Source of the DNA: Dehalococcoidia bacterium
GTDB taxonomy: Bacteria; Chloroflexota; Dehalococcoidia; Tepidiformales; Tepidiformaceae
DNA length: 64,000 nt
Direction of reading: 5' to 3'
NCBI GenBank assembly: GCA_020850615.1
Contig: JADZEI010000021.1
Span: 124,001 to 188,000, forward strand
Part shown: piece by piece, positions 59,872 through 63,912 of the stretch
How positions within the stretch are numbered: the first letter of the stretch is position 1
Layout of the letters: the number at the start of each line of letters is the position of its first letter
The notes under the pieces: model-generated
What the model was told of the DNA's origin: nothing
Database searches by the model: none
The model's input: the letters and a program-made list of their open reading frames with translations, nothing else
Made by a program: the position numbers and the translations under genes

Positions 59872-60059
59872 GAGGGGGACCTCGGCAAAGGAGGTACGTC
59901 CAGTATAGCGAATCGCGAGGCCCGGGCCGGTGAGCGGCGATGTCGGTGCCATAACGGGTAGCCGGAGCGTAACGATTCGTGAACCTGTGGGCCGGGGCGG
60001 CGCCGGGCCGTTTACGGGCCGATCGCCGGGGGCGTAGCCTTAGCGCTACGGTTAGCCCA

Positions 60060-60761
60060 ATGAGCACAGTACTCGAACTCCTCACCCTCCAGGGCCTCGA
60101 CGACGAAGCCGCCGCGCTGCGGGCCGCGCTATCGGATGTCGAACGGCGCATCGCCGGCGACGAAGAGCTGATGAACGCCCGCCGCGCCTTCGCCGAGGCC
60201 GACGACCGGGTGAACGAGGTGCGCCGGCGGCAGCGCCGGCTCGAAGACGAGATCGAGACGCTGAGCGACAAGATCGCGCGCGAGGAGAAGCGGCTCTACG
60301 ACGGCTCCGTGAAGAACCCGAAGGAGCTGAGCTCGCTCCAGCACGAAGTCGAGTCGCTCAAGGCGCACCGCAGCCCCTTCGAGGACGAGCTCATCGGCGT
60401 GCTCGACGAGTTCGAGCGCGAGGAGCGGGCACGCAAGGAGGCCGCCCGCACGATGGCCCAGCTCGAAGCGCTGCGCGAAGCCCACCTCGTCGACCTGCGG
60501 AGGGAGGGGCGCCGCCTGAACGACGCGATCCTCAAATCCGACACGCGGCGCGAAATCCAGAAGGCGAAGATCCCGCCGCGGCCGCTCGCCGCCTACGAGG
60601 ACCTCCGCCGCCGCAAGGGAGGCATGGCGATCGCGAAGATCTCGGCGGGGTCGTGCCTGGGCTGCCGGGTGAGCGTCCCCGACGCGATCCGGCGGCGGGC
60701 GCTGTCGTCCAACGAGCTCGCGCAGTGCCCCAACTGCGAACGCATCCTCTCCCTGGGCTGA
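60060..60761 (+). CDS. Zinc-ribbon coiled-coil protein (CT398/DUF164-like)
   Basis: 233 residues. A long antiparallel coiled coil (about residues 10-175) followed by a C4 zinc ribbon (C-x2-C in SCLGCRV and CPNC near the end). Homologues (CdsZ/CT398 group) have been linked to flagellar, secretion or transcription functions, but no general role is settled. GTAGC and GCTAC arms lie just upstream (60035-60050). It ends 4 nt before the recombinase-like gene; the two appear cotranscribed, which is unusual for a recombinase. Confidence 0.85.
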   Translation: MSTVLELLTLQGLDDEAAALRAALSDVERRIAGDEELMNARRAFAEADDRVNEVRRRQRRLEDEIETLSDKIAREEKRLYDGSVKNPKELSSLQHEVESLKAHRSPFEDELIGVLDEFEREERARKEAARTMAQLEALREAHLVDLRREGRRLNDAILKSDTRREIQKAKIPPRPLAAYEDLRRRKGGMAIAKISAGSCLGCRVSVPDAIRRRALSSNELAQCPNCERILSLG

Positions 60762-60765
60762 GCGC

Positions 60766-62187
60766 GTGAAGGCCGTCGGGTACTTCGTCGAAGGAGCGAA
60801 GCGGAACGGGCACAAGCGCGGCATCGGCGACCAGAACCGCGCCTTCCTCGATTTCTGCAGCCGGCAGGGCTACGAAGTGGCCGGCACCTTCCTCGATACG
60901 GCCGACCCCGAAGCGCCCGGCAGCGGCTTCCGCCAGATGCTCTCGTTCCTGCAGCGCGCCGACCGGGGCTTCACCGTGGTGGCGGTCGATTCGCTCGGCG
61001 TGCTCGGCGCGGACCTCGGCGAGGCCGCGATGAAGCTGCTCACGATCGAGACCTCGGGCGTCACCGTCGTATCGGTCCACACGGCGAAGGAGCTGGCGAA
61101 GGAGCTCGTCGAGACCTGGGCCGAGCGCGGCGACGAAACGCCCGTGAGCGAGCGGGTGCGCGCGGCGATGCGGCGCAAGGCGGTGAAGGGCGAGGTCCTC
61201 GGGCGGCCGCCCTATGGCTACCACGTCGGGCCCCGGCGCCGGCTCGAGCTCGTGCCGGACGAGGCGGTGGTCGTGCGCTACATCTTCCGGCTCTACCTCC
61301 AGGAAGGGCTCGGCATTCGGAAGATCGCGGGCAAGCTGAACGAGGAGGGGATCCTCACCCGGCGCGGCGGCCGCTGGAGCATGGTCAGCGTGCGCGACCT
61401 GCTCCGGAACCGCGTCTACCTCGGCACGTACACGCGCTTCGGAGTGAAGATCCCCGGTAGTCACGCACCGCTGGTCTCGCAGGAGGACTTCCGCCAGGTG
61501 CAGGAGCGGCTCCAATCGCGCTCGGGCGAGGTGCGCGAACGGACGGTGACGCCCTTCCTGCTCTCGGGGCTGCTCTACTGCGCCCGCTGCGGCAACCGCA
61601 TGATCGGCGTGAGCCGCCGCCAGAAGTGGAAGACGCGCGACGGCGAGGAGCACTCCTCCTCGTACCGGTACTACCAGTGCGAAAGCCGCACGAACCAGAG
61701 CTCCTGCGGCTACAACACCCAGCGCGCCCAAGAGATCGAGGCGCGCGTGCGGGCGATGGTCGCCGAGGTCGAGGATTCGCCGCAGGTGCGCCGGGTACGC
61801 CGCGCGGGCAACGTCGATTCCTACGTACTCGACCTCATCGCCGAGGTCGACCGGATCGAAGCGCGCATGCGGAAGACGCGGCGCCAGCTCGAAGAGATCG
61901 TGGCCGATACGGCGCACGGCCACCTGAGCCTCGAACGGATGCGCGCGCTCGGGAGCGAGCTGGCCAAAGAGCAGCAGGACCAGGCCGGGGAGCTCGCCGC
62001 CGCGAAGGCCCGCCTCGCCGCGCACCAGTCGGAGTCTGAACGGCACCGCCACCTGGACGACCTGCGCGCGCGCCTGACCACGAGCTGGGACGAGATGCCG
62101 TTCGCGGAGCTCCAGCGGGCCCTGCGCGAAGTCGTGGACCGGGTGGACGTGGACGGCGACGAGAGCCGGCTCTTCCTGCGGCCGTAG
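60766..62187 (+). CDS. Large serine recombinase homologue lacking the catalytic serine
   Basis: 473 residues. The N-terminal resolvase fold reads AVGYFVEGAKRNG where active enzymes have a YxRVS motif, so the catalytic Ser is Gly (residue 10) and the preceding Arg is Val. The DRLSR loop also reads DSLGVLG. The recombinase domain (GRPPYGYHVGPRRRLEL, IAGKLNEEGILTRRGGRWS), zinc ribbon (CARCGNRM and a later C..C) and C-terminal coiled coil are intact. It should still bind DNA but not recombine it. GTG 60766 follows the previous stop by 4 nt. No att sites, insertion boundary or compositional change is seen; it may be domesticated. Confidence 0.88.
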   Translation: MKAVGYFVEGAKRNGHKRGIGDQNRAFLDFCSRQGYEVAGTFLDTADPEAPGSGFRQMLSFLQRADRGFTVVAVDSLGVLGADLGEAAMKLLTIETSGVTVVSVHTAKELAKELVETWAERGDETPVSERVRAAMRRKAVKGEVLGRPPYGYHVGPRRRLELVPDEAVVVRYIFRLYLQEGLGIRKIAGKLNEEGILTRRGGRWSMVSVRDLLRNRVYLGTYTRFGVKIPGSHAPLVSQEDFRQVQERLQSRSGEVRERTVTPFLLSGLLYCARCGNRMIGVSRRQKWKTRDGEEHSSSYRYYQCESRTNQSSCGYNTQRAQEIEARVRAMVAEVEDSPQVRRVRRAGNVDSYVLDLIAEVDRIEARMRKTRRQLEEIVADTAHGHLSLERMRALGSELAKEQQDQAGELAAAKARLAAHQSESERHRHLDDLRARLTTSWDEMPFAELQRALREVVDRVDVDGDESRLFLRP

Positions 62188-62253: not shown

Positions 62254-63912
62254 TCAGGCCGCCTGGTTGAGCGCGCCCTTTTCCGGCACGAACGTCTCGC
62301 CCTTCGAGTTGTGGGCGATGTGGCCGAAGCGGCCGATGAAGCCGCTCAGCTCCGACGTGCTCGACGCGAGCGACTGCGACTGGCGGGCCGCCTCGCTAAT
62401 CTGGGTCGACACTTCCTCGGCGCTGGCGGAAACCTGCTCGCTGGCGGCTGCCGCCTCCTCGGCGATGGCGCTGGCGTCGGCCACGGCAGAGACCACGCGC
62501 TGGCTGGCAGCGCTCATGTCGGTCGCCAGGTGGGCCGACCGCTCGGCGAGGGAGGCGAGCTCCGTGAGGAGCGAGCCCATCTCGGCGGCGGCGCCTTCGA
62601 CGCTCGCGGACGCCTGCTTGATGGCGCTGATCTCGGTGTTCACCTGGCCCGCGCTCTCGACGATGCGGCCGAGGGCATCGCCGGCCGTCGCGGCACGTTC
62701 GCTGCCGGTTTCGACATCGGCGAGGCTGCGCTCCATGGCCTTGACGGCGCGCTCGGTGCCCCGCTGCACGCCGCTGATCAGGTCCGAGATCTCCTTCGTG
62801 GCGAGCGCGGTCCGCTCGGCGAGCGAGCGCACGTTTTCGGCGACGACGGCGAAGCCGCGGCCCTGCTCACCAGCACGGGCAGCCTCGATCGCGGCGTTGA
62901 GCGCCAGCAGGTTGGTCTGGGCGGCGATGTCCTGGATGACCTGGACGATCGCACCGATCTGGGAGCCCTGCTTGCCGAGCTCCTCGATCTCGCCGGCCGA
63001 CTCGGTCACGGTGCGGCGGATGATGTCCATCGCCTCGACCGTCTGCTGTACGGCGACGGTGCCTTCCTCGGCAGCGTGCAGCGAACCTTCGCCGCGCGTC
63101 ACGGCGGAGTTCGACGCTTCGGCCACGAGGGCGAGCGCGTCTTCGACCTGGGCGGTCGCGGCGACAGCCTGCTGGATGCTCGCGACCTGGCTGGCCGCCC
63201 CGGCTTCGATGTCGGACGCGGAGGTGCTGAGCTCCTGCATGTCGGCGTTCATGCTGATAAGGGCGGAGGTCTGGGAGGTCGCGCCGCGGGCGATCTCGTC
63301 GACCGCGTTCGCGATTTCGCGCGCGGCCGTGTCGACGTGGCCCACGCGGACCCCGAGCTCCTTCAGCGGCCCGCCGAGGTTGTCGTGGATGTCGACGAGC
63401 TGTTCGAGCACGCCCTCGCTGATGAACGTCTCGACCGCGAGCGTCATGTCGAGGACGAAGACCTTCTGGAAGGCGATGATCGTGTTGATCAGCCTGTCAC
63501 CCTTGAGCTTCTTCGCCAGCAGCGGGAAGACGATGCTCGCGTAGATCGAGTAGTTGCCGACGTTCCAGCGCGGTTCGACGTTGAGCTTGGCGTGGACCAG
63601 GCCCACCTTCAGACGCTGCTCGAAGTACTCCTCGTCGAAGCGGCCATCGAGGATGCGGAGGAAGTACTTCTTCTGGGCGACCTCCATGACGGCCCGGCTC
63701 GAGCCGACGCTGGTGATCTTCTGGTTCCATTCGGCGAACGAGGACGAGTGGTCGTAGAAGCGCTTGACGATGTCGTCCACGTGCGGGCGGAGGATCGGCG
63801 CCGCCGCGCGGATGAGCTCCGCGTCCGCTTCGGTGACGGCAATCCAGCGCAGGCGAAGCGACTGGTCGGCGGGGGTGACATGAAGGCGTTGCGTCAGGGT
63901 CTGGACGGCCAT
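62254..63912 (-). CDS. Globin-coupled methyl-accepting chemotaxis sensor (HemAT-like)
   Basis: 552 residues, no membrane helix. Residues 1 to about 180 form a protoglobin/sensor-globin domain with a proximal His at H107 ([20 protein letters not shown]), the usual R/K-x-G-x2-H pattern. The C-terminal part is an MCP coiled coil with the hairpin tip [25 protein letters not shown]. It would sense O2 or another gas via heme and signal to CheA in the cytoplasm. No che genes are in the window. The C-terminus ends KGALNQAA without a CheR-binding pentapeptide. The upstream region continues to the window edge without another gene. Confidence 0.93.

Follow-up and report, generated by a model that had tools for sequence, protein, structure and literature searches.

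Large serine recombinases (LSRs) such as the integrases of SPbeta (YokA), Bxb1, A118 and PhiC31 combine a catalytic fold with a recombinase domain, a zinc ribbon and a coiled coil. Cells are known to put dead transposases and nucleases to new use, and TldR is reportedly a nuclease-dead, domesticated mobile-element protein. Our literature search found no report of an LSR that has become a permanent cellular gene throughout a class. In the part of the A118 integrase study used here, the linker that follows helix E occupies the minor groove of the DNA, whereas strands beta11-beta12 of the zinc ribbon, together with the next turn, engage the major groove (PMC3783163).

The gene analysed here, REC, is located at 60766..62187 on the forward strand of the window, i.e. 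the whole stretch of 64,000 nucleotides under study, and encodes a predicted catalytically dead LSR of 473 aa (GTG start, TAG stop). It has the domains of the large serine integrases, and a phrog_95 integrase matches it over residues 128-467 (E 1.7e-71); unlike these integrases, REC presents no active-site set, no element, a single fixed locus and an inverted conservation profile. The top curated NCBIfam models, those of the CcrA, CcrB, CcrC and XisF recombinases, cover its C-terminal part with 53-75 bits against cut-offs of 375-900, so REC is not a member of these families, and no curated NCBIfam model reaches its own cut-off on this protein. By analogy, REC is close to TldR-type domesticated proteins, in which catalysis is lost and nucleic-acid binding retained, as would be the case here, but it differs from TldR by its serine recombinase scaffold and its retention across a whole class. 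We consider it likely that REC is a pseudo-integrase that was domesticated and is retained to bind or bridge DNA.

The partner gene of REC, ct398, belongs by PF24481 to the CT398/FlgZ (HP0958)/DUF164 genes. These genes share synteny with rpoD and dnaG, rnhA being found in a figure legend, and the portion of that account drawn on here mentions no recombinase-like gene in their neighbourhoods, unlike the REC locus (PMC3372290).

Distribution and genomic setting of REC

The first-pass annotation had named absence from close relatives as an observation that would speak against domestication. Such an absence was not seen: REC orthologues are present in 35 of the 37 genomes of the window's family (Tepidiformaceae), and both genomes without REC are incomplete draft assemblies, one with a contig that stops inside ct398 (G015) and the other with no ct398 match (G002). 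The orthologue of Tepidiforma flava (L062) shares 65% identity. In the class draw (class meaning the GTDB class throughout; NCBI now puts Tepidiforma in class Tepidiformia), a REC match was counted from the match listing in 150/294 genomes at E ≤ 1e-60; at 1e-40 the count was 163/294, some ordinary LSRs included. The phylum draw gave matches in 10 of 301 genomes at 1e-60, all ten in REC's own class. In a scan covering 84,980 species genomes, 120 relatives were confirmed; judged by title, the best 80 of these 120 were nearly all Chloroflexota or Dehalococcoidia, with a few labelled only 'bacterium'.

In a tree of 56 of the 137 full-length members, built by a quick method and with some long branches, the 56 REC rows fall on one side of a branch with an SH-aLRT of 99 and 20 intact LSRs on the other; five chosen rows are absent, perhaps because the same protein was retained from another locus. 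Genome families mostly cohere in this tree, one exception being L040, which is labelled as the window's family and has a long branch. Among the matches listed, phage, plasmid and viral relatives of REC reach just ~23-34% identity, and a nearby mobile origin was rejected on this basis. REC is best read as an ancient, class-wide, vertically inherited pseudo-integrase.

Upstream of REC, ct398 (60060..60761, forward strand, 233 aa) codes for a CT398/FlgZ/DUF164-like coiled-coil zinc-ribbon protein (PF24481, E 1.7e-16). Its stop ends at 60761, in agreement with the 4-nt spacing behind a zinc-ribbon coiled-coil gene already reported in the first-pass annotation. The housekeeping surroundings described there were found as well: tatC, tatA, acpP, nusB, fabG, fabD, rpmF and yceD lie on the minus strand, followed by ct398, REC and a protoglobin-MCP gene (for yceD, ct398 and the MCP gene the assignment was checked with Pfam, the remaining names being read from translations). 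This last gene (62254-63912; PF11563, PF00015) immediately follows REC, in convergent orientation, and likely encodes a gas sensor for chemotaxis. A simple promoter and terminator scan gave no match. No mobile element is apparent at REC and nearly all members share this one housekeeping locus; the identical arrangement in many genomes rules out chance.

Synteny was counted at loci with room, drawn from 141 distinct REC proteins. The orthologues are conserved beside the DUF164-like gene: of the 138 distinct members whose upstream sequence was long enough, 118 have ct398 as the gene directly before REC, at a median gap of 4 nt. Among 80 named loci, 77 have it upstream on the same strand, most at ≤20 nt, and the other three start at or near a contig edge. 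Using a profile built from six loci of this analysis, rnhA (RNase HI) was found within 260 nt downstream of REC in 64/137 members, and the order ct398-REC-rnhA in 60/134; a weak opposite-strand rnhA match (32 bits) in L002, L044, L051 and L132 was not scored as adjacent. Behind REC in L091 (L179), two RNase HI profile matches lie ~600 nt apart, possibly a duplication. The family is class-wide and, by its gene order, placed between ct398 and rnhA, which goes beyond the view of the first-pass annotation.

At ct398 loci of the same class that lack REC, rnhA is directly behind ct398 in 12 of the 25 with room, and in other classes in 2 of 24. Since the ct398-rnhA pair exists at REC-less loci, other classes included, REC appears to have been inserted into an older pair, and the simplest history would be that of an LSR gene that entered between ct398 and rnhA and then stayed. 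In six REC-less loci of other classes (L263, L265, L266, L273, L274 and L278), ct398 is followed by a ~495-aa ORF, which in L265 and L273 resembles, by eye, a membrane-anchored NACHT-type NTPase.

The profile search did not detect ct398 in 11/11 genomes of four families that keep REC (loci L038, L160-L167, L181, L190, L193 and L204), the L190 family being represented by that genome and the L204 family by two sister genomes. This null result is credible because the same profile matched 26 of 32 other genomes. A role of REC as obligate CT398 partner is weakened by these four families and, with rnhA adjacent in about half of the loci, REC would not be strictly dependent on either neighbour.

RNase HI removes RNA:DNA hybrids, and REC could guide it, and CT398, to DNA sites where such hybrids are cleared, the three proteins forming one unit. 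The 60 loci with the complete order and the insertion of REC between already paired genes are consistent with this, as are L190 and L204, from two families, in which REC still precedes rnhA with no ct398 upstream. However, rnhA is non-adjacent in about half of the loci; this includes the window, where the MCP gene comes next and an rnhA lies on another contig of the genome. We regard such a unit as rather unlikely.

Tandem element upstream of the operon

A conserved tandem element (60031..60057, forward strand), a candidate operator or promoter, precedes the operon; its second copy, GCTACGGTTAGCC, is at 60045-60057. The GGTTAG core is present in 26/26 aligned upstream regions of the family. 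Exact matches to GCTANGGTTAGCC, the second copy as it stands in the family, occur in 10 of the 17 genomes searched, a single one in each and nine of them at the ct398-REC operon, compared to four scattered matches for a reversed control pattern in the same search. These features would fit a REC that acts mainly as an autoregulator, binding the tandem element to repress or tune the ct398-REC operon, with no wider role. The element was, however, found in Tepidiformaceae only and not in families that share the recognition residues of REC, and it may serve as part of a promoter or as the site of a different protein; pure autoregulation is therefore judged unlikely.

The search for a class-wide DNA site of REC found none, the Tepidiformaceae element being absent in the other families despite the conserved recognition residues, and a role of this element as the operator of REC throughout the class is not supported. 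An operator function may still apply to it; because the residues with which REC would read DNA are conserved where the element is missing, it could just as well belong to a promoter or be the site of another factor. A search of the REC coding sequence for a hidden binding site gave no outstanding stretch at third codon positions.

Domain organisation and loss of the active site

REC starts with a degenerate resolvase-type catalytic domain (residues 1-125; 60766..61140), recognised by alignment, by a fold match to TP901-1 integrase and by dN/dS. It is followed by the end of helix E, the linker and the recombinase, or DNA-binding, domain (residues 126-255; 61141..61530), the best-conserved part, then by a zinc ribbon (residues 262-330; 61549..61755) with the conserved ligands C272, C275, C305 and C314, all on the forward strand. 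The C-terminal part (residues 331-473; 61756..62184, same strand) is a coiled-coil insertion with a beta hairpin, modelled by AlphaFold2 as helices 352-383 and 389-419 and strands 457-463 and 466-471. Pfam detects PF07508 (Recombinase, E 4.2e-23) and PF13408 (Zn_ribbon_recom, E 9.2e-12) in the window protein, and both in 24/24 REC members checked. The recombinase domain, zinc ribbon and coiled coil noted at first reading are thus retained. PF00239 (Resolvase) was not detected in the window REC at E ≤ 0.1, and was found in 8 of the 24 members checked, the window protein not among them.

The AlphaFold2 model of REC has a mean pLDDT of 86.1 and a pTM of 0.60. Its residues 1-129 superpose on the TP901-1 integrase catalytic domain with Z 12.9 and an rmsd of 3.1 over 118 residues, and the whole model matches the SPbeta integrase 9dxh (Foldseek E 3.7e-21) and VIA (9y66; Z 18.3). 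Additionally, a profile search of solved structures groups REC with the integrases of phages A118 and SPbeta, Bxb1 and PhiC31. The profile search and the model matches together indicate that REC descends from LSRs and, as predicted by the model, retains their catalytic fold. In the model, helix E is interrupted at 122-126, where local confidence is low; tetramer formation by REC may therefore be impaired.

In the alignment, the window REC carries V8, G10, G52, V79 and A82 in the columns of R8, S10, R45, R68 and R71. The active-site Ser and the Arg preceding it are replaced, as the first-pass annotation had claimed, and the DRLSR loop is lost, although not at the place given: D-R-L-x-R aligns with G78-V79-L80-G81-A82, three residues past the start of 'DSLGVLG'. 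Its statement that all catalytic residues were lost holds for these five, but not for Y6 and Q23 (Q19 column), which are retained in the window protein and often kept across the family.

Among the 137 full-length members, from which the short fragments L032, L048, L130 and L206 were excluded, R8 is kept in 66, S10 in 10, R45 in 25, R68 in 7 and R71 in 8, with the divergent N-termini making single alignment columns uncertain. None of the five residues is kept in 52 members, one in 56, two in 27, three in 2, and four or five in none. These patterns indicate that the losses differ by lineage and that the whole REC clade is crippled. The comparison set consisted of the 20 intact LSRs, out of 23 matches, that carry a YxR-[VYAKI]-[ST] motif, the other three being dropped; R8 and S10 are present in this set by selection, whereas R45, R68 and R71 were not selected for. 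Three members (L039, L181 and L204) seem to keep R68 and R71, but their N-terminus is degenerate. Two families combine a degenerate N-terminal domain with an intact DNA-binding core; in the L181 family the first 25 residues, the expected site of the catalytic strand, have a pLDDT <50 and the DNA-binding core aligns readily.

In member L036, three of the four zinc-ribbon cysteines are gone and the surrounding strand residues are kept, as read by eye from the alignment. This loss of ligands, and the coiled coil encoded by the partner gene, would suit a REC that has also lost double-stranded DNA binding and works as a protein scaffold or an RNA-binding protein. As the DNA-binding domain is the best-conserved part of REC, we hold this to be quite unlikely.

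An active recombinase with unusual chemistry is very improbable: seven of the 137 members retain both R8 and S10 (with a YFRES motif in six), and Y6 and Q23 are often kept, but these seven lack the other catalytic arginines, the full catalytic set is found in 0/137, and no element is seen at the single fixed locus. The data favour instead the domesticated, DNA-binding pseudo-integrase.

Constraint along the protein

The dN/dS of orthologues, proposed as a check in the first-pass annotation, is 0.04-0.17 in 14 of the 16 lowest-dS family pairs; the remaining two pairs (dN/dS ~0.79, dN 0.28, dS 0.35) are read as having saturated third positions. In the same 14 pairs, the recombinase domain shows 0.01-0.08, among the lowest values, and the catalytic-domain part alone 0.03-0.21. 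Purifying selection thus persists on the catalytic domain in close pairs, so this domain presumably still does something.

Neutral decay, the other observation that had been named as adverse, left no sign, dN/dS being low and the DNA-binding part best conserved. A decaying leftover of an integrated element, or a recent prophage remnant, could account for catalytic residues that are lost and varied, but its probability is close to nil given the retention across the class, the low dN/dS in 14 of the 16 closest pairs, and the open frame, with no internal stop, of every match listed in the family and class draws.

In a clade of intact LSRs (n = 13), the mean identity is 80% for the catalytic domain and 57% for the recombinase domain, whereas REC shows 31% and 57%, respectively. 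When only pairs with a recombinase-domain identity of 50-70% are compared, the catalytic-to-recombinase identity ratio is 1.43 in intact LSRs (56 pairs) compared to 0.52 in REC (3965 pairs). This reversed constraint between domains is the strongest sign of a changed REC function. As read from these identities, intact integrases hold the chemistry and vary the target, whereas REC has dropped the chemistry and frozen the part that would read the target.

Residues R185, R199, R210, R214, R224, R284, W288, R301, Q304, R308 and N310 are near-invariant in REC and not in other LSRs, although one third of the LSRs in the comparison also have R301. In the alignment, many of them, namely R185, R199, R210, R284, W288, Q304, R308 and N310, map to the regions, helix-turn-helix and zinc ribbon, with which A118 integrase touches DNA (PMC3783163).

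Proposed cellular role of REC

The constancy of the locus and the long, class-wide retention of a dead REC argue that it probably serves the cell through DNA binding. The domestication put forward at first reading accords with the presence in 35/37 family genomes, the purifying selection and the class-wide spread, and its DNA-binding role is the one we would also assign. On the present data, an LSR gene took its place between ct398 and rnhA at an early stage of the evolution of the class, the DNA-cutting residues are missing from the whole REC clade, and purifying selection, most strongly on the DNA-binding half, keeps the gene at this locus. The present protein would bind double-stranded DNA at a specific type of site through its recombinase domain, minor-groove linker and zinc ribbon, in the manner of an integrase at its attachment site, and residual dimer and coiled-coil contacts would let it bridge or loop DNA with no cutting.

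With less confidence, REC may share a cellular process with CT398/DUF164 proteins and RNase HI, namely transcription and RNA:DNA-hybrid housekeeping, for example as a site-marking or architectural factor that perhaps also regulates its own operon. In the portions of the reports used here, a DUF164 protein of mycobacteria was found in association with RNA polymerase and was also recovered together with DNA (PMC7092591), and a Waddlia CT398 homologue gave ChIP-seq peaks and interacted with RpoD (PMC6426960). The link of REC to transcription and RNA:DNA hybrids is drawn from its neighbours and is an association, not proof. A bolder version, which we think improbable, is that attachment-site recognition was turned into a permanent chromosomal function, REC binding a fixed type of site and bridging it uncut, and serving, together with RNase HI and the transcription-associated DUF164 protein, as a site-directed factor for RNA:DNA hybrids or transcription-replication conflicts.

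The authors of a review, in the part used here, know no evidence for serine resolvases mediating prokaryotic chromosome segregation (PMC8987985), and a retained cellular use of this scaffold is therefore of interest. The frozen DNA-binding domain of REC makes the question testable, as a conserved target is to be expected, and there are cultured members of Tepidiforma, according to the portion of a further report used here (PMC10284905). The position of REC between ct398 and rnhA is also a concrete lead on DUF164 proteins outside sigma-54 biology.
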